From Sideroxydans sp. (GTDB taxonomy: Bacteria > Pseudomonadota > Gammaproteobacteria > Burkholderiales > Gallionellaceae), in contig JAQUAD010000027.1 of assembly GCA_028687425.1 (NCBI GenBank), positions 1 to 38,507 on the forward strand: a stretch of DNA of 38,507 nt, read 5' to 3'. A program made the position numbers and the translations under genes. Positions 1-13,625 of the stretch are shown here, piece after piece (the stretch's first letter is position 1; the number at the start of each line of letters is the position of its first letter). The notes beneath the pieces are model-generated. The model ran no database searches and was not told the DNA's origin. It saw only the letters and a list, made by a program, of their open reading frames with translations.

Positions 1-208
1 CATGCAACAGCAAAGTTGCGCCGCCGAACACGGTGATGATGCCCAGGCTCACCCACAGCATGGTATCGACCTTGCCGTGATGGTATTTCACCCAGGCGAC
101 CTGTACGAAGGTGGCGGCGATCGCTGCGGCGGTGGCAGCGAATACGCCCGCCACTTTGAACACGATGAAGAACAGGATGACCGGGAACAGGTCGAACAGG
201 ATCTTCAT
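1..208 (-). CDS. yciB: YciB/IspZ-family inner membrane protein (5' part only)
   Basis: The visible N-terminal 69 residues begin [14 protein letters not shown] and are almost entirely hydrophobic, with a short charged stretch (VKYHHGKVD) between two membrane segments. This is the typical start of the YciB/IspZ septation-associated membrane protein family, whose members have about 180 residues and five membrane segments. The family is linked to cell-envelope integrity and septation; its biochemical role is not settled. The start codon overlaps the stop of the upstream msrB by 4 bases (ATGA), so it is the last visible gene of the bcp-phoH-gst-msrB operon. The rest lies beyond the window edge. 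Confidence 0.85.
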
Positions 209-597
209 GTGCGATCCAGTGCCAGCGAGGCGGAATTGAGGCAATAGCGCAGGCCGCTGGGAGCAGGGCCGTCTTCGAACACGTGGCCCAGATGCGCACC
301 GCAGTTGCTGCACACGACTTCGATGCGTCCCATGCCGAGCGGATCTTCGTCGCTGTATTCGACAGCTTCCTCTTCGATCGGCTGCCAGAAGCTGGGCCAG
401 CCGGTGCCGGATTCATACTTGGTCTCGGAATCGAACAATGGCGCGCCGCAGCACACGCAGCGGTAGGTGCCGATGTCATGGCAATCCCAGTATTCTCCGG
501 TGAAGGCGGGTTCGGTGCCGCCCTTGCGGCAGATCTCGTATTGTTCGGGCGTGAGTTGTTCGCGCCATTCTTCATCCGTTTTGTCGATGTCGTTCAT
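205..597 (-). CDS. msrB: Peptide-methionine (R)-S-oxide reductase MsrB, cytosolic
   Basis: This 130-residue protein is a complete MsrB domain with no signal peptide. It reduces the R epimer of methionine sulfoxide in proteins, using thioredoxin. Zinc-binding pairs are C47/C50 and C96/C99; the GTGWPSF motif is at about 64-70, and the catalytic cysteine is C119 in RYCLN. The ATG at 597 is chosen because the family normally starts just before the conserved [11 protein letters not shown] segment; the longer upstream reading frame is Arg-rich and lies inside gst. The gene overlaps gst (4 bases) and yciB (4 bases), so it is translated as part of a housekeeping operon. A second, exported MsrB is at 10193-10681. 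Confidence 0.93.
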
Positions 598-1208
598 TTG
601 TTGTCCGCCAGTGAGAGTTGGATGCCGGGTCGTGCACTCATGCGCAGGAACCATGCGGCCAGGTCGGGGTGTGCGCCGCGCCAGTCGCGTCCGGGTTGAC
701 GCAGGTCGAGATAGGCCAATGCGCTTACCAGCGCCAGATCGGCCAGCGTGAGTGCATCGCCCTCGCACCAGTCGCGCGTGCCGAGCTGCGCGGCGATGTG
801 CTGCAAGGTATGCGTGATGGCATTGTTATGCAATTCGAGCGTGGCAGCGAGCTGCATCTCCTGCGGGCGCAATACTTCGTTGCGCACCACGATGGCCGAA
901 TCCATGATGCCATCGGCCAGTGCTTCCCAGCGCCGCACCCGCATGCGCGCCAGCGCATCGTTGCGCGGGATGAGGATGGGCGTGTCGTTGAGCGTGTCGG
1001 CATATTCCGTGATCACCACGGAATCGAAGATGCATTCGCCGTCGTCGAGGATCAGCGCCGGGATGCGGCCCAGCGGATTGACGCGATACACCTCGCTGTT
1101 CGGATCGCTGGGCGGGTCGACCACATAGTCGTGCGGCAGGTTCTTCTCCAGCAGCACCAGACGTGCTTTGCGCACGTATGGGCTGGTATTGGAGCCGATC
1201 AGTTTCAC
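594..1208 (-). CDS. Glutathione S-transferase family protein
   Basis: The 204-residue protein has the two-domain layout of a bacterial glutathione S-transferase. An N-terminal thioredoxin-like fold starts [17 protein letters not shown] and contains the cis-Pro/Ser glutathione-site region ([11 protein letters not shown], then DSVVITEY). An alpha-helical C-terminal domain follows, with the conserved N-capping segment ALTLADLAL. It resembles the YibF-like group; the substrate is not predictable. The start is GTG at 1208, overlapping the stop of the upstream phoH-like gene by 4 bases (GTGA), which implies translational coupling. Its stop overlaps msrB in the same way. Position between peroxiredoxin, MsrB and PhoH genes suggests a general stress or detoxification role. 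Confidence 0.88.
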
Positions 1209-5268: not shown

Positions 5269-6296
5269 GGCAGGGCGTAGGGCAGCGGTTCGAATTCAAG
5301 ACGCGGGCCGGTCAAGGCACCGAGGTGAACCGGGAAGGCATCTGCAGCTTCGGTCTGTGCCACCACCAGCATCTCGAACCCGCCATGCGCGGCTTGTGCC
5401 GCATTCACCACTTCGCCGCAGTGCTGCGCCGGATCGGCGGCGCTGAACACCTTGTCGCCGGGTAGCGGTGCGCTATCGGTCATCACGCGTGCCAGGTACA
5501 TGCGGCGTTTCGCTTTGCCCAGATAATGCATGCGCGCCACGACTTCCTGCCCGGGATAGCAGCCCTTCTTGAAATTGATGCCGCCGATGAGTTCGAAGTT
5601 GACCATCTGCGGCACGAATGCTTCCTGCGTCTGCGGCAGGATGAACGGGATACCGGCGCGGATATCCAGCCAGTCCCAGCAGGGAGAGCCGGCAGGCGTT
5701 GCAGTGGCAGCCAGCGAGTTCCATATCTCGCCGGCACGCGCGGCTGGGGCGACGATCTGCATGCGGCGCGCATCGCGGCGGATCAGTGCGGCATCGTTTG
5801 TCTGCGTCACGCTCATGCTGTCGCCCGGCATGTCTGCATACAGAGCCTGCAGGGCAGACAGCGCTTTGTCGCCGCTCAGCCCGATGCATACCTGTTCATC
5901 GCTGATGTCGGTGATCTTCACTTTGGAACGCAGCACATACATCGACAGTTTCTTGCGCATCGCTTCGCACAGTCCGCGCGGCATCTGCAGGATGTAGGCA
6001 TCGTCCTGTTTCCAGATCAGCATGCTGGCCAGCATGCGTCCCTTGGCATTGTTGAAACTGGAAAGTTGTGAGCGTCCGTTGTCGACATCGCGGATATCGT
6101 TGGAGAGCAGGTTCTGCAGGAAGCCCTGCGCATCTTCACCCGTTACCTGCAGCAGGCCGAAATGCGACAGGTCGCACAGGATGTCGCCACGCTCAGCTGC
6201 TTCACGCTCCGCCGCAGCGTTGCCGAAATCGTGCAGCACGCCTGCAACGAGGTTCGCCTTGTTCGTCGTCAGGAAATCTTGCCAGTCTGTGTTCAT
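5265..6296 (-). CDS. ygfZ: Folate-binding YgfZ-type Fe-S cluster protein
   Basis: The 343-residue protein has the GcvT-like tetrahydrofolate-binding fold and the diagnostic YgfZ motif K244-G-C-Y-P-G-Q-E251 with Cys246. YgfZ helps maintain or repair certain iron-sulfur enzymes, in a folate-dependent way. The start ATG at 6296 is chosen over more upstream codons because the family begins near this point and an upstream extension would run into the divergent promoter region. Divergent from the peptide-binding gene at 6367 with 70 bases between. The CbiM-like permease follows with a 4-base overlap. Confidence 0.92.
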   Translation of the reverse strand: MNTDWQDFLTTNKANLVAGVLHDFGNAAAEREAAERGDILCDLSHFGLLQVTGEDAQGFLQNLLSNDIRDVDNGRSQLSSFNNAKGRMLASMLIWKQDDAYILQMPRGLCEAMRKKLSMYVLRSKVKITDISDEQVCIGLSGDKALSALQALYADMPGDSMSVTQTNDAALIRRDARRMQIVAPAARAGEIWNSLAATATPAGSPCWDWLDIRAGIPFILPQTQEAFVPQMVNFELIGGINFKKGCYPGQEVVARMHYLGKAKRRMYLARVMTDSAPLPGDKVFSAADPAQHCGEVVNAAQAAHGGFEMLVVAQTEAADAFPVHLGALTGPRLEFEPLPYALP

Positions 6297-6366
6297 GATC
6301 GTGTCCTGTTGGAATCGTTGCGTAATGTTACCGTGAAGCGGAGTGTTTCGGCTAAACTCTCGCGCC

Positions 6367-8490: not shown

Positions 8491-9126
8491 TTACCACTTT
8501 AGCGCTTTCCTTCCCGCCAGATACCCGATCAGTCCCACCATTATCATCGGCAGATAATGCCACTGCAGTACATGCAGGATGGAGTCGTTCACTTCGTACA
8601 AACGCAACCAGATCGCGCCGACGCTGAACGCAGCGAGCAAGGCGAAGCTGCCTGCCCAGTGAGGATAGGTGCTGGCATAAGTTTGCAAGACCCAGAAGGC
8701 CAGCGCGGCCGGGATCAAGGAAACGAAGGTGATATCCAGCGTGCATTCGAAACTGTGTACCGGGAATGGTGCCGGGGGCGTATCGGTCAGCCAGGCGAAG
8801 GTCATCAGCAGCATGAACATGGCGACAAAAACCGCCGGTGCATAAACGAGCTTGCGTTTCTGGTGCAGATCGGGGAAGGCGAGCAGGGCGGAACCGAAGG
8901 TGGTAGCGAGCAGGATAAGCAGCAACAACAACAGCTCTGCGACATACAACGGCTGCTGTACAGCTTGCGCCAGATCCGGCCGCAGTCCCGAGGCGGCTAG
9001 TGCGACGAGCAGATAGATCAGCGCAGTGCCCGCCCATTTCAGGCTCAGCACCCACGGTGACGGCGCGGGGCGGATGGTTGTCGCCTCGCTGCTCAGTTGT
9101 TGCACCAGTTGTTCGATGTCTTTCAT
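8491..9126 (-). CDS. nrsF: NrsF-like anti-sigma factor (DUF1109), six membrane segments
   Basis: The 211-residue protein has a short cytosolic N-terminus (MKDIEQLVQQLSSEATTIRP) and six hydrophobic segments, the DUF1109/NrsF layout. NrsF proteins hold a SigF-type ECF sigma factor at the inner membrane and release it under oxidative stress. The start overlaps the stop of the sigma gene by 4 bases (ATGA). Only one cysteine is present (C128); the region near 176-192 (RLYEVNDSILHVLQWHYLP), where relatives usually have a second conserved cysteine, has none, so the sensing chemistry may differ. Assignment rests on topology, the PxP...WH pattern and gene context. Confidence 0.85.
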   Translation of the reverse strand: MKDIEQLVQQLSSEATTIRPAPSPWVLSLKWAGTALIYLLVALAASGLRPDLAQAVQQPLYVAELLLLLLILLATTFGSALLAFPDLHQKRKLVYAPAVFVAMFMLLMTFAWLTDTPPAPFPVHSFECTLDITFVSLIPAALAFWVLQTYASTYPHWAGSFALLAAFSVGAIWLRLYEVNDSILHVLQWHYLPMIMVGLIGYLAGRKALKW

Positions 9127-9665
9127 TTTTCTTCCAGCCTTTGTCTTAAAACTTTGTAGGCCCGATGGGCGGCGACTTTCACCGCCGATTCATTCATACC
9201 CATCTGCTGCGCGGTCTCTTTTGCGGTGTAACCCTGCTGATGCATCAGACGCAGAATGGTGGCCTGCTTCTCGGGGAGTTTTTCTATCTCCCCGCTGATG
9301 GATTCGTAACTGATGGCGGTTTCGGTTACATCGTCGTGCAATATGTTCTCCAGATCGGCGATGTCATCGGCGTGCCGCAGGTGGTCGGCGTAGTGCATGC
9401 GCAGGTGATCCTGCAGGCGGAAGTGGGCGATGGCGTACAGCCAGGGCTTGAAGGGGCGCCGGCCGTCGTAGGTGTGGCGCGCCTTGTGCAGCGAGATGAG
9501 TATCTCCTGCAGCACATCATCCACCTCGTGCTCGAAGCGCAGACGTTTGGACAGGAATGGCCGCAACAGACGCGCGGTTTCTCGCAGCAGCTCGGCGTAG
9601 GCCTGCTTGTCGCCCTGCAGCGTTGCGCGCATCAACTGTTCCAGATTGGATGAAATTTGTGTCAT
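9123..9665 (-). CDS. sigF: ECF-type RNA polymerase sigma factor, SigF-like
   Basis: The 180-residue protein has sigma region 2 (about 15-90, with VDDVLQEILISLHKARHTYD and PFKPWLYAIAHFRLQDHLR) and sigma region 4 (about 125-178, with LPEKQATILRLMHQQGYTAKE and the recognition helix around NESAVKVAAHRAYKVLR). Regions 1.1 and 3 are absent, as in ECF factors. Pairing with a DUF1109 anti-sigma gene (4-base overlap) places it with SigF of Caulobacter and Azospira. It is divergent from the Met-rich peptide operon, whose upstream region carries a matching promoter at 9671-9696. Predicted to activate that operon when released from NrsF. Confidence 0.9.
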   Translation of the reverse strand: MTQISSNLEQLMRATLQGDKQAYAELLRETARLLRPFLSKRLRFEHEVDDVLQEILISLHKARHTYDGRRPFKPWLYAIAHFRLQDHLRMHYADHLRHADDIADLENILHDDVTETAISYESISGEIEKLPEKQATILRLMHQQGYTAKETAQQMGMNESAVKVAAHRAYKVLRQRLEEK

Positions 9666-9670
9666 GCCTT

Positions 9671-9696
9671 GTAACTATTTTTTCGTCCGTTACGAA
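9671..9696 (+). promoter_or_regulatory. Putative SigF-dependent promoter of the Met-rich peptide operon
   Basis: GTAACT (9671-9676), a 16-base spacer and CGAA (9693-9696) match the GTAACC-N16-CGAA pattern that I recall for SigF-type ECF promoters. It points at the Met-rich peptide gene and would start RNA near 9703, giving a leader of about 85-90 bases. The -35 half-site also forms an inverted pair with GTTAC at 9689-9693. Inferred from sequence; not verified experimentally. Confidence 0.65.
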
Positions 9697-9790
9697 TCAA
9701 GGGGTGCACGGGGCAGAAAGTGTACCCGTGTATGAGGATACCACCCGGCATCGCTCGTCATATCGAACTGAAATCAAAAAGGAGAAACTC

Positions 9791-10123
9791 ATGAAAGCAA
9801 TGCAATCGATGATGCTGGCACTCTGTCTGGCGGCTTCCGGCAGCCTGGCACAGGCCGCGGATGAGATGGGGCATGGTGCGATGGAGATGAAGAAGTCTGA
9901 CACTTCCATGGAGCAGGGAACCATGCGTATGGAGCGCAAGGAAGACAAGATGATGAAGCAGGACAAGATGATGAAGCAGGGCAGCATGGAGAAGAAGAAA
10001 AAGCTGACCGAGAAAGAAAAGAAGGCGATGAAGAAGAAAGAGCTGAAGGAAAAGAAGATGAAGAAAGAAGCAATGATGAAGGAAGAGAAGATGGAGCATG
10101 GCTCGATGCAGCGCATGAAGTAA
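9791..10123 (+). CDS. Exported Met/Lys-rich peptide, MrpX-like
   Basis: The 110-residue precursor starts with a Sec signal peptide (hydrophobic core about 7-18, likely cleavage after AQA at residue 22). The mature part of about 88 residues contains 18 Met and 25 Lys, many Glu and no Cys or Trp. It includes the near-tandem units KMMKQD/KMMKQG (53-65) and a highly charged helix-prone middle (67-100); MGHGAM and MEHGSM motifs bracket it. Composition and SigF/NrsF context match MrpX of Azospira suillum, a periplasmic methionine peptide that is oxidized by hypochlorite and regenerated by a reductase. Here the next gene is an exported MsrB. A good ribosome site (AAAGGAGAAACTC) precedes the ATG. Metal binding by Met/His motifs is an alternative role. 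Confidence 0.85.
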   Translation: MKAMQSMMLALCLAASGSLAQAADEMGHGAMEMKKSDTSMEQGTMRMERKEDKMMKQDKMMKQGSMEKKKKLTEKEKKAMKKKELKEKKMKKEAMMKEEKMEHGSMQRMK

Positions 10124-10192
10124 GCGTGGTTGCCGGTCGTGGCAGGGGCCGCGGCCGGAACGATGCAACGATCAACAGATAGAGGTGATCCC

Positions 10193-10681
10193 ATGGACAG
10201 ACGCACATTCATTTCCTTGGCAGCAGGCAGTACAGGCTTGTTGCTGCTGCCCGGTCTGGGGCGGAACGCGTTCGCTGCTGCACGCAGTGACAAATTGATA
10301 TTGAGCGATGCGGAATGGAAGCAGAAGCTGACGCCGCAGCAATATGACATCCTGCGCAAGGAGGGAACAGAGCGCGCATATACCAGCGCGCTCAACGATG
10401 AGAAACGCGCGGGCATGTTCCTGTGCGTCGCTTGCGAGCAGCCCTTGTTCCCTTCGCGCTTCAAGTTCGACAGCGGAACAGGCTGGCCCAGTTTTTACGA
10501 TGTATTGCCCGGTGCGGTCGAGACCAGCACCGACTACAAGCTGATCTACCCGCGCACCGAGTATCACTGCTCGCGTTGCGGCGGCCATCACGGTCACGTG
10601 TTCGAGGACGGCCCGCGACCCACCGGCCTGCGCTATTGCAACAACGGTGCTGTGCTGAAGTTCGTGCCGGAGAAAGGCTGA
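10193..10681 (+). CDS. msrB: Tat-exported methionine sulfoxide reductase MsrB
   Basis: The 162-residue protein begins MDRRTFISLAAG, a twin-arginine signal peptide with likely cleavage near AFA at residue 28, followed by a complete MsrB domain. Zinc pairs are C78/C81 and C126/C129; the GTGWPSF motif is at 95-101 and the catalytic C149 in RYCNN. Zinc loaded in the cytosol would explain use of the Tat route for a folded enzyme. It should reduce R-methionine sulfoxide in the periplasm. The ATG at 10193 has AGAGGTGATCCC before it and gives the twin-arginine leader exactly; upstream codons do not. It lies between the Met-rich peptide gene (69-base gap) and the DipZ-like gene (1-base gap), so substrate, enzyme and electron donor are probably co-expressed. 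Confidence 0.92.
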   Translation: MDRRTFISLAAGSTGLLLLPGLGRNAFAAARSDKLILSDAEWKQKLTPQQYDILRKEGTERAYTSALNDEKRAGMFLCVACEQPLFPSRFKFDSGTGWPSFYDVLPGAVETSTDYKLIYPRTEYHCSRCGGHHGHVFEDGPRPTGLRYCNNGAVLKFVPEKG

Positions 10682-10682
10682 T

Positions 10683-12332
10683 ATGAATACGCTCGATATC
10701 GGACTGGCGTTCCTGGAAGGGCTGGCGCTCATCGTGTCGCCCTGCATCCTGCCGGTGTTGCCGCTGGTACTGGCAGCCTCGGTGGATGGCGGCAAGCGCA
10801 GACCGTACGGCATCATCGTCGGTTTCGTGCTGGCGTTCAGCCTGTTTGCGGTGGCGGCACGCGAAGTGGTGGCGCTGCTGGGCATCGATCTGGATGTGAT
10901 CCGCGATGTATCGCTGGTGCTGCTGGCGCTGTTCGGTCTGGTGCTGCTGTCGGAGAAATTGTCCGCACGCTTCAGTGCGCTGACGCAGGGCGCGGCGAAT
11001 CTGGGCAACGATCTGGCAACAGGCAAGGGCGAGGGCTTCCTCAGCGGCATCGGTATCGGTGCCTTGATCGGTCTGGTGTGGACGCCGTGCGCGGGGCCCA
11101 TCCTGGCTGCGGTGCTGGTGCAGGTGATCCGCCAGCAAAGTGATCTGGCCGGGAATCTGGTCATCCTGTCCTTCGGCATCGGCGCGGGCATTCCCATGCT
11201 CATCATTGCGCTGACCGGGCGCAAGTTGATGAGCAAGCTTGGCTTTCTGACACAGCATGCGGAAGCGGTGCGGCGCGGCTTCGGAGTGCTGATCCTGGCC
11301 TCGGTGGCGTGGATCGCCTCTGGCGTCGATATCGAAACGCTATTCATGCCCTCCCAACGCATTGAGGTCGCGCAGGGCGAGCTGAAGCTGGAGCACGGTT
11401 TGCCCCAACCCTATGCCGCCCCCGAATTCGTCGGCATCGACAACTGGCTCAATTCGAAGCCGCTCACTATGGCCGGTTTGAAAGGCAAGGTGGTGCTGGT
11501 GGATTTCTGGACCTATTCCTGCATCAACTGCGTGCGTACTTTGCCTTACATCACCCGTTGGGATCGCAAGTACCGTGATCAGGGGCTGGTCATCATCGGT
11601 GTGCATTCGCCCGAGTTCGAGTTCGAGAAGAAGACCGCCAATGTGCAGGCCGCCATCGCGGAGCACGGTATCGAGTACCCGGTCGCGCAGGACAACCGGC
11701 TCGATACCTGGAGCAATTTCGATAACCGCTACTGGCCCGCGCATTACCTGATCGATCGCGAAGGCAAGGTGGTCTACACCCATTTCGGCGAAGGCCAGTA
11801 TGACGTGACCGAGAACAACATCCGCTACCTGCTGGGGCTGGGCGAGAAGGTCGCGCAGGCCGCCGACGAAGCGCCGGCTTTTGCCGCGACGCAGACGCCG
11901 GAGACGTATCTTGGCTATGCGCGCGGGCAAAACTTCGAGAGCCCGGAGGACGTGGTGGCGGATGCGTCCCGTCGTTACAGTTTTCCGACGCGCCTGCAGG
12001 ACGACCACTGGGCGCTTGCGGGTGACTGGCAGATCGGTTCGGAACGTAGCGTCTCCGCATCGGCGGGTGCCCAACTGAATCTGAATTTCAATGCACGCAA
12101 GGTATTCCTGGTGCTGGGTTCAGCCAGCGGCAAACCGATCGAGGTGAAGGTCAGTTTGAACGGGAAGGCACCTGCAGGCGCTGCCGGTAAGGATGCTGCG
12201 CAAGGCAGCCTGAGGGTGCAGCGCAACACCCTGTATGAGTTGATCGATCAGGGTGAGATGCGGCGCGGTGTGCTGGAGATCGAAGCGTTGCAACCGGGGC
12301 TGGAGATCTACGCTTTCACTTTCGGGGCATGA
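10683..12332 (+). CDS. DipZ-like fusion: CcdA/DsbD membrane domain, TlpA-like thioredoxin domain, C-terminal beta domain
   Basis: The 549-residue protein moves reducing power across the inner membrane. Residues 1-225 form a CcdA/DsbD-beta domain with the paired membrane cysteines C21 (SPCILP) and C136 (TPCAGP). Residues about 245-390 form a periplasmic TlpA/AhpC-like thioredoxin domain with the redox pair C280-I-N-C283 in FWTYSCINC. Residues about 405-549 form a C-terminal beta-rich domain as in DipZ proteins. Cytosolic thioredoxin would reduce the membrane domain, which passes electrons to the thioredoxin domain and then plausibly to MsrB, encoded one base upstream. A classical DsbD would instead have an N-terminal Ig-like alpha domain, which is absent. 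Confidence 0.9.
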   Translation: MNTLDIGLAFLEGLALIVSPCILPVLPLVLAASVDGGKRRPYGIIVGFVLAFSLFAVAAREVVALLGIDLDVIRDVSLVLLALFGLVLLSEKLSARFSALTQGAANLGNDLATGKGEGFLSGIGIGALIGLVWTPCAGPILAAVLVQVIRQQSDLAGNLVILSFGIGAGIPMLIIALTGRKLMSKLGFLTQHAEAVRRGFGVLILASVAWIASGVDIETLFMPSQRIEVAQGELKLEHGLPQPYAAPEFVGIDNWLNSKPLTMAGLKGKVVLVDFWTYSCINCVRTLPYITRWDRKYRDQGLVIIGVHSPEFEFEKKTANVQAAIAEHGIEYPVAQDNRLDTWSNFDNRYWPAHYLIDREGKVVYTHFGEGQYDVTENNIRYLLGLGEKVAQAADEAPAFAATQTPETYLGYARGQNFESPEDVVADASRRYSFPTRLQDDHWALAGDWQIGSERSVSASAGAQLNLNFNARKVFLVLGSASGKPIEVKVSLNGKAPAGAAGKDAAQGSLRVQRNTLYELIDQGEMRRGVLEIEALQPGLEIYAFTFGA

Positions 12333-12337
12333 ATGTT

Positions 12338-12979
12338 TCAGCCGTGGGATTCTTGCCAGGCCTTCTGTAGCGTGTCGGCGAACACCTCGACAGGCTGCGC
12401 ACCGGCGATGACGATGCTCTCATCGATGACGAAGCAGGGCACGCCGGTGATGCCGAATTCCGCAGCCCGCTCTTCATCCGCGCGTACCGCGTTTGCATAA
12501 GCATCGCTTTCCAGCACGGACAGCGCCTCCTGTTCGGTGATGCCGAACTCGGGCGCGAGTCGCGCCAGTGCATGGATGTCGCCGACCGCAAGCGACTCCG
12601 AGAAGTAGCCCTGCATCAACCGTTCGGAGGCGACATCGTCCAGCTGGCGGCTGGCGGCGAAGTGCAGCAGGCGATGGGCGTCGAAGGTGTTGCCGGGACG
12701 GGCGTTCTCCAAGTGGTAATCGAGCCCGACGTGTTTGGCGGCCTCGGTCACGCGGTCGTTCATGGCGGCGGCTTCCTGCAGCGTGACGTGATATTTCTCG
12801 GCCAGCATCTCGTTCAGTGTGCCGCTCGGGTTGCGTGGCGAGCTGGCATCCAGTTCGAAGCTGCGCCAGATCACCTGCACGCTTTCCCAGTGCGGGAACT
12901 TTGCGAGTGCCATCTCCAGCTTGCGTTTGCCGATATAGCACCACGGGCAGATCACATCCGACCAGACCTCGATCTGCAT
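12338..12979 (-). CDS. DsbA-family oxidoreductase, FrnE-like
   Basis: The 213-residue protein has the FrnE-type DsbA fold: MQIEVWSDVICPWCYIGKRKLE with the redox pair C11-P-W-C14, an inserted helical domain, and the cis-proline segment GVPCFVIDE near 180. There is no signal peptide, so it is cytosolic, unlike DsbA itself. FrnE homologues act as disulfide oxidoreductases or isomerases in the oxidative stress response. It is translated after the Rossmann protein gene with a 4-base gap and converges on the DipZ-like gene (5-base gap), placing another thiol enzyme beside the methionine repair operon. Confidence 0.9.
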   Translation of the reverse strand: MQIEVWSDVICPWCYIGKRKLEMALAKFPHWESVQVIWRSFELDASSPRNPSGTLNEMLAEKYHVTLQEAAAMNDRVTEAAKHVGLDYHLENARPGNTFDAHRLLHFAASRQLDDVASERLMQGYFSESLAVGDIHALARLAPEFGITEQEALSVLESDAYANAVRADEERAAEFGITGVPCFVIDESIVIAGAQPVEVFADTLQKAWQESHG

Positions 12980-12983
12980 GACG

Positions 12984-13625
12984 TCACTCCTGTCTCAATA
13001 GTTTGAAAGCATGCGTCCATTCGTTGTGAAGGAAGCCGGGGATGCACCATAGCATGCACAGCGGTTCGATGGCACGTGCCGCTTCCGCCTTGCCCATGTC
13101 GGCGACATCCCAACCGAACTGGTCGAGGATGGCCAGCACCGGCTGCTTGGCCGCGTCGTCGTTGCCGCAGATGAACATGGTCGGCCGTCCCTTGAGTTGC
13201 GGATTGACCATCAGCGCATTGCCCACCGAGTTGAAAGCCTTGATGAAGTGCGCATCGGGATATGCGCGCTGCAATCGTTCCAGTTGCGATTCGTCCAGAC
13301 TGGTATAGAACTTCAGCACGCCGTTGACCGGCGCTGCATCGGCGATGGGGTTGGTCGTGTCGATAACGGTCTTGCCGGTGAGATTGGCCGCGCCCGCCAG
13401 ACTCAGCACGTCGAGCGCCGCCGAGCCCTTGACTGCCAGTACCACCACTACGCCGAAAGCGGCAGCCGTGGCGAAGTCGGCGATACGTGCTGTGTGATGT
13501 ATTTTCTGCCAGTCTGCGAGTTTGTCCGGGTTGCGTGTACCCAGCGTGACATCGTGGCCGTGCTTGAGCAAACCGCCGGCCAGTGCTTTCGCGACATCTC
13601 CTGAACCAAGGACTCCGATCTTCAT
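12984..13625 (-). CDS. NADPH-dependent F420 reductase-family (Rossmann) protein
   Basis: The 213-residue protein starts MKIGVLGSGDVAKALAGGLLKHGHDVTLGTRNP, a clear dinucleotide-binding fold with GxGxxA and the R/N pair that recognizes the NADP phosphate. The segment VIDTTNPIADAAP and the FIKAFNSVG motif are typical of the NADPH-dependent F420 reductase-like family (FNO/NpcR-like), which in proteobacteria without F420 probably acts on other substrates; the function is unknown. ATG at 13625 with AAGGAGATCATC before it. Likely first gene of a two-gene unit with the FrnE-like gene, divergent from the permease at 13753. Confidence 0.85.
   Translation of the reverse strand: MKIGVLGSGDVAKALAGGLLKHGHDVTLGTRNPDKLADWQKIHHTARIADFATAAAFGVVVVLAVKGSAALDVLSLAGAANLTGKTVIDTTNPIADAAPVNGVLKFYTSLDESQLERLQRAYPDAHFIKAFNSVGNALMVNPQLKGRPTMFICGNDDAAKQPVLAILDQFGWDVADMGKAEAARAIEPLCMLWCIPGFLHNEWTHAFKLLRQE

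Follow-up and report, generated by a model that had tools for sequence, protein, structure and literature searches.

The stretch of DNA analyzed here (the window: 38,507 nucleotides, contig JAQUAD010000027.1 of the Sideroxydans sp. assembly GCA_028687425.1, a genome of 2.79 Mb in 119 contigs) carries a compact five-gene locus, in which the genes for a sigma factor of the SigF type and its NrsF-type anti-sigma factor are divergent from those for a methionine-rich peptide, a methionine sulfoxide reductase (MsrB) and a DipZ-like thiol carrier (Table 1). An earlier note, made from the sequence alone, had described an extracytoplasmic function (ECF) sigma gene overlapping a DUF1109 gene, divergent from genes for a peptide with about 20% Met, an MsrB with a twin-arginine (Tat) leader and a CcdA-TlpA fusion; coordinates and domains of all five genes were confirmed, as was the single base between the msrB stop and the carrier start. 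The genes for NrsF and the sigma factor overlap by 4 bases, and the gap between sigF and the peptide gene measures 125 bases. Neither a terminator-like nor a sigma-70-like site was found within 9600-12450, which is weak evidence.

Table 1. Genes and promoter of the sigF/nrsF locus, with positions in the window.
Feature	Position	Strand	Evidence
NrsF-type (DUF1109) membrane anti-sigma factor	8491-9126	-	Pfam NrsF PF06532, 3.4e-38
ECF sigma factor, SigF type	9123-9665	-	Sigma70_r2, 1.2e-12; Sigma70_r4_2, 1e-12
Predicted ECF16 promoter TGTAAC-N17-CGAA facing peptide-msrB-dipZ	9670-9696	+	exact consensus match
Putatively exported Met-rich peptide, MrpX-like, 110 aa	9791-10123	+	22 Met (20%), 24% Lys
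MsrB with Tat-like leader	10193-10681	+	SelR PF01641, 1.7e-44; TIGR00357, 157 bits (cut-off 113.05)
DipZ-like carrier CcdA-TlpA-Thioredoxin_10, 549 aa	10683-12332	+	PF02683, PF08534, PF17991

The MsrB contains two CxxC pairs and the catalytic RYC motif, with no further Cys, and begins with the Tat-like leader MDRRTFIS. A loose RR motif was present in 45 of 51 collected MsrB open reading frames (ORFs); the six without it include a second MsrB encoded in the window (205-768, minus strand), likely a cytoplasmic copy. The carrier combines a CcdA membrane domain, a TlpA-like thioredoxin domain with a CINC motif and a C-terminal Thioredoxin_10 domain, and the closest solved structure to its thioredoxin part is Mycobacterium tuberculosis DipZ (2hyx, 1.5e-59). 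Upstream of both, the peptide ORF is preceded by AAGGAG and starts with a leader judged to be of the Sec type by eye, so that a periplasmic location is presumed. Among the 295 ORFs of 45 aa or more in the window, it has the highest number of Met per 40 residues (10, the next having 8); it contains only two His, and has its single Cys in the leader. No Pfam or NCBIfam family matched it at E 0.001; peptides of other relatives contain repeats of the MXKDX kind, MXKDX being the name given to Brucella BcrX (PMC8315932, accessible part). By comparison with loci L111, L113 and L116, which have the NrsF proteins closest to that of the window on the NrsF tree, the peptide gene is, to judge from its substitution rates, under purifying selection (nonsynonymous rate dN 0.12-0.14, synonymous rate dS 0.73-0.77), with Met retained by each of the three at 17 of the 22 Met positions.

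The regulator itself departs from described NrsF proteins. We aligned 142 of them: that of the window, 59 from the same family and 82 from the phylum (the phylum search returned 102 places, of which 82, in 80 stretches, were taken and 18 weak or partial ones omitted, the remainder being the window's own and one already in the set). Cys128, which corresponds to C129 of Bradyrhizobium OsrA, is invariant in all 142 and is the only Cys of the window NrsF. At position 178 (C179 of OsrA), where a second conserved Cys would be expected, 71 proteins have Cys (the ordinary clade), seven have His and 64, including that of the window (E178), have Glu. This Glu clade, with 60 members from the same family and four from outside, consists mostly of records named Gallionella, Sideroxydans, Nitrotoga, Sulfuricella and kin. 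Its members differ from the ordinary clade at further positions as well: E at position 64 (63/64, versus K in 61/71), H at 124 (63/64, versus mostly N, S or T), H at 185 (64/64, versus F in 58/71) and H at 190 (63/64, versus Y in 64/71). The window NrsF scores 44.2 bits against the NCBIfam equivalog AntiSigF_NrsF (NF042994), below its 300-bit threshold. On a tree of the 142 proteins, computed with columns 124, 178, 185 and 190 excluded, residue 178 changes just twice, and the 64 Glu proteins form one side of a branch with a Shimodaira-Hasegawa-like approximate likelihood ratio test (SH-aLRT) value of 98; read without a root, the tree allows these changes to be either gains or losses. The Glu-clade traits are not locked together, since H185 coexists with C178 in six ordinary-clade proteins, four of them near bufferin-like genes (a call that, here and below, rests on a DUF2282 motif which we presume to be diagnostic).

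An AlphaFold2 model of the window NrsF (mean predicted local distance difference test score, pLDDT, 90.3) shows six long helices, at residues 24-46, 59-82, 85-114, 126-147, 155-177 and 183-208. If these alternate across the membrane, residues 64, 124/128, 178 and 185/190 would come to lie near the same membrane face. A fold search with the model against the PDB gave no match at E 0.001, and a search with the NrsF sequence none at E 1. In OsrA, C179 is essential for sigma release upon peroxide stress, as described in the accessible part of PMC3420878. In Caulobacter, either single Cys mutant of NrsF could still be further induced by stress and only the double mutant could not (PMC3511200, accessible part); because the single mutants stayed inducible, the second Cys is not generally essential. 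For OsrA, periplasmic Met residues have been proposed to act in sensing; this was considered and rejected for the window NrsF, which has no Met in the predicted loops 47-58, 115-125 and 178-182, the sides of the loops being assigned from the model helices.

A second peculiarity of the Glu clade concerns its promoters. The ECF16 consensus, (T/C)GTAAC-N17-CGAA, is taken from the accessible part of PMC8315932. It is matched exactly at a single site of the window, where 0.08 would be expected; this site lies inside the divergent gap and points at the peptide gene. With a strict pattern (spacer 16-18), a site on the target side was found in 47 of the 56 same-family loci scored, including the window, compared to 0.25 expected after base shuffling. 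Not one of these 56 has a strict site facing sigF, versus 49 of 68 ordinary-clade loci scored, and a looser pattern faces sigF in 4/56 (3.6 expected) versus 56/68; a self-promoter outside the scanned stretch would escape detection. In the ordinary clade, strict sites facing away from sigF occur in 18/68. The scoring left out four of the 60 Glu-clade family loci, three of the 71 Cys proteins and two of the seven His proteins. Two of the four Glu-clade loci from outside the family have a forward site, and a hand tally of named records, which overlaps the 56-locus set, gave forward sites at 57 of 68 NrsF loci and reverse sites at none. Thus, most loci of this lineage have a target promoter, and none of those scored has a strict sigF self-promoter. 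Genome-wide prediction of an ECF16 regulon was dropped, because the pattern is too weak, and the main text of the Sideroxydans ES-1 transcriptome paper (PMC8788666) contains none of the terms sought.

In the Glu clade, NrsF most often has methionine sulfoxide reductases and thiol carriers as neighbours. Partners were counted within 6.5 kb of NrsF, so that the numbers cover the neighbourhood and not targets elsewhere in the genomes, and they are lower bounds, as several family contigs end near nrsF. MsrB is present in 48/64 Glu-clade, 0/71 ordinary and 2/7 His-group neighbourhoods, and genes of the MsrP type in 6/64, 9/71 and 0/7, respectively; MsrA and TlpA/DipZ accompany 38/64 and 37/64 Glu-clade proteins. 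The order of the five genes, which the earlier note had suggested to look for in other genomes, was seen again in relatives, and msrA lies near 38 of the 48 MsrB-bearing Glu-clade loci. Two loci from outside the family, L191 and L192, have a gene that we take to be DoxX-like opposite their Glu-clade NrsF, followed by msrB and msrA. L204 and L205 combine a His-178 NrsF with CcdA-TlpA-Thioredoxin_10 and MsrB genes nearby.

MsrB and DipZ had been proposed to take the place of the molybdoenzyme reductase MsrP/YedY, and the genomes agree with this proposal. No Oxidored_molyb gene, the family of MsrP/YedY, was found in the window's own genome, in a search whose control matched in 9 of 14 genomes, nor in any of the 34 genus genomes, a set that contains the window's own and some incomplete ones; 34 of 158 family genomes have one, all of them outside the genus. 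Four loci (L069, L079, L084 and L104) encode MsrB and MsrA with no recognised carrier, and have a gene of the molybdenum oxidoreductase family, of about 254 aa, beyond nrsF; L114 has neither. The molybdoenzyme and the carrier may thus be interchangeable. The earlier note had also pointed out that MsrB handles only the R epimer of methionine sulfoxide, which leaves the S form to a second reductase or the peptide partly oxidized. The window's own cluster contains no MsrA, and the source genome has two msrA genes, on contigs C86 and C65. The C86 product has a leader that appears by eye to be of the Sec type and shares 79% identity, across 183 aa, with the MsrA from the L107 cluster, while the top matches of the C65 product reach 41-50% identity. 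The gap is thus probably filled by the exported-looking C86 enzyme, as the first of the two options would have it; its co-regulation is doubtful, because the pattern list contains no ECF16-type site near this gene.

A peptide was recognised in 16 of the 64 Glu-clade neighbourhoods, together with MsrB in 15, MsrA in 14, TlpA/DipZ in 14 and MsrP-type genes in three, and in four of the 71 ordinary-clade neighbourhoods, all four with MsrP and none with MsrB. In other words, the peptide accompanies whichever reductase arm is near, as predicted by the modular arrangement that the earlier note had envisaged. At L068, a gene for a protein of about 250 aa (5565-6320, minus strand), presumably FecR-like, occupies the usual place of the peptide between promoter and msrB.

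We consider it probable that the locus is an operon switched on by stress, which uses periplasmic methionine for scavenging and repair. At the level of sequence, it comprises a sigma/anti-sigma pair, a predicted ECF16 promoter facing peptide-msrB-dipZ and a full set of redox parts. An envelope signal would make NrsF release SigF, which would then turn on peptide-msrB-dipZ but would not activate sigF. Once exported, the peptide would absorb the oxidant as Met sulfoxide, as MrpX and BcrX suggest, and the Tat-exported MsrB would reduce the R form. Judging from domains and gene adjacency, electrons would travel from cytoplasmic thioredoxin via the CcdA part of the carrier and its TlpA-like domain to MsrB, and exported MsrA from C86 would probably reduce the S form. 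In other SigF/NrsF/MrpX systems the reductase role falls to MsrPQ, whose place the MsrB/carrier arm would take in the window's genus. This picture is supported by gene content and spacing, by the promoter at most same-family loci, by the partners counted in the Glu clade, by the lack of an MsrP-family gene in the genus, by the exported-looking C86 MsrA, by the Tat-MsrB, DipZ and MsrA genes of Burkholderia multivorans, and by experimental precedents described in the accessible parts of PMC8315932 and PMC3420878. Several observations weigh against this picture. Nine of the 64 Glu-clade NrsF have none of the partners sought, and some precede bufferin-like genes instead: at L123 and L124, the strict ECF16 promoter of a Glu-clade NrsF lies ahead of such a gene (presumed from the same motif) and not of msrB. 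The strict promoter is missing in 9 of the 56 same-family loci, the ECF16 pattern is not enriched genome-wide (50 matches versus 109 for the reversed control) and none of its sites lies near the C86 msrA. The Cys that OsrA requires for release by peroxide is absent from the window NrsF. Finally, a peptide was recognised at only 16 of the 60 same-family NrsF loci, and must therefore be regarded as optional.

A somewhat unlikely alternative is a general repair operon: MsrB and the carrier would serve the repair of periplasmic proteins, with the peptide as a bystander or an unrecycled sink. In its favour, 33 of the 48 MsrB-bearing Glu-clade loci lack a recognised peptide, and periplasmic or surface MsrAB proteins of Haemophilus and Streptococcus are described, in the accessible literature, as serving protein repair or stress resistance. 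Against it, the peptide gene evolves under the purifying selection estimated above; in 15 of the 16 loci having one, it was the ORF picked first behind the promoter; and 19 of the 20 peptide loci, counting both clades, have an Msr arm no farther than 6.5 kb away. Alternatively, the operon might respond to metal stress, with NrsF as a metal sensor, the Met-rich peptide as a periplasmic ligand of Cu(I) or a different soft metal, and MsrB and carrier providing repair. Bufferin-like genes, as we presume them to be, are found within 6.5 kb of 15/64 Glu-clade and 8/71 ordinary NrsF, and the additional His and Glu residues of the Glu clade would, in the model, sit near one membrane face. Furthermore, chromium and cadmium are among the signals of SigF/NrsF in Caulobacter (PMC3511200, accessible part). 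Nevertheless, the commonest partners are Msr and the thiol carrier (48/64 and 37/64), and the peptide has only two His and a single Cys, the latter in its leader; we regard this explanation as unlikely. That the genes are chance neighbours with no joint function is very improbable, given that the gene order recurs and the promoter is conserved in relatives, even if these genes are found in other settings, such as the msrB-dipZ-msrA cluster next to a two-component system in Burkholderia multivorans.

For the regulator of the proposed scavenging and repair operon, we tentatively suggest that the Glu-178 clade represents a differently built sensor: a Glu/His site (E64, H124, E178, H185 and H190, with Cys128) near the periplasmic face, perhaps a metal site read by oxidants, might take the place of the thiol trigger, without autoregulation of the sigma factor and with one promoter for an MsrB-DipZ(-MsrA) arm fed by thiols, to which the sacrificial peptide may or may not be added. 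A CcdA/TlpA relay might undo the very thiol switch that induces it, which would favour a non-thiol sensor. For a link between sensor residue and reductase type through repeated evolution, the NrsF tree offers only one independent pair, and at the regulon level Bradyrhizobium OsrA, with both Cys and a regulon of Msr and CcdA, provides a counter-example. The 64 aligned proteins without the Cys that is central to the OsrA model offer a natural test of NrsF sensing, as many of them still have the promoter and a target gene for Met repair. One regulator family is suggested to govern peptide-based methionine scavenging with two reductase chemistries, a molybdenum enzyme with MsrQ or a thiol relay feeding MsrB. 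A dedicated circuit for methionine repair in the envelope would make physiological sense in bacteria living on Fe(II) and oxygen.

Beyond the operon, and tail to tail with dipZ, lie a gene for a DSBA-family oxidoreductase (12338-12979, minus strand), which we take to be FrnE-like, and one of the F420/NADP oxidoreductase type (12984-13625, minus strand); both are possible further redox genes.

Among known systems, the hypochlorite-scavenging SigF/NrsF-YedYZ-MrpX of Azospira suillum (PMC4623255, PMC8315932) and the Brucella system BcrS/AbcS-BcrXQP (PMC8315932) are, in the accessible accounts, similar to the window in uniting a sigma/NrsF-type pair, a Met-rich peptide and a Met-sulfoxide reductase in one locus, and the Brucella promoter has the same consensus. 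They differ in the reductase arm, which consists of MsrP/YedY and MsrQ/YedZ instead of MsrB and a DipZ-like thiol carrier, and Brucella AbcS retains both Cys, whereas the window NrsF has one. The remark of the earlier note that it knew of no description of such a replacement is borne out only in part. As early as 2012, an ECF16 sigma factor of Bradyrhizobium japonicum was proposed to control an exported Msr that receives electrons from a CcdA-type protein and a membrane thioredoxin (PMC3420878): as far as the accessible text goes, the EcfF/OsrA regulon resembles the window in placing Msr genes, one of them for an exported enzyme, and a CcdA-type/thioredoxin pair, for which the authors proposed this same electron route, under an ECF16 sigma factor, but it is spread over separate transcription units, OsrA keeps C129 and C179, and ecfF is autoregulated. 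The term “methionine-rich” does not occur in the main text of that paper. Likewise, predicted exported MsrA/MsrB lie beside sigF/nrsF, yedYZ and mrpX, the key genes for stress there, in perchlorate reduction islands, where the accessible part of PMC4623255 describes them as an addition to yedYZ and mentions no carrier. In B. multivorans (NZ_CP020399.1), the genes for an MsrB with a Tat leader (MPTRRHFLF), a DipZ-type carrier 37% identical to that of the window, and MsrA are consecutive; unlike in the window, they adjoin a sensor kinase and a response regulator, and no sigma/NrsF or Met-rich gene is annotated in the surrounding 8.4 kb, in a gene table that may be incomplete. A literature search found no description of a compact peptide-MsrB-DipZ operon under SigF/NrsF or of the Glu clade, which does not establish their absence from the literature. 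Given the Bradyrhizobium, perchlorate-island and B. multivorans precedents, the replacement of the reductase is in part less new than first thought, and the differently built NrsF together with the missing self-promoter is more interesting than the reductase swap alone.

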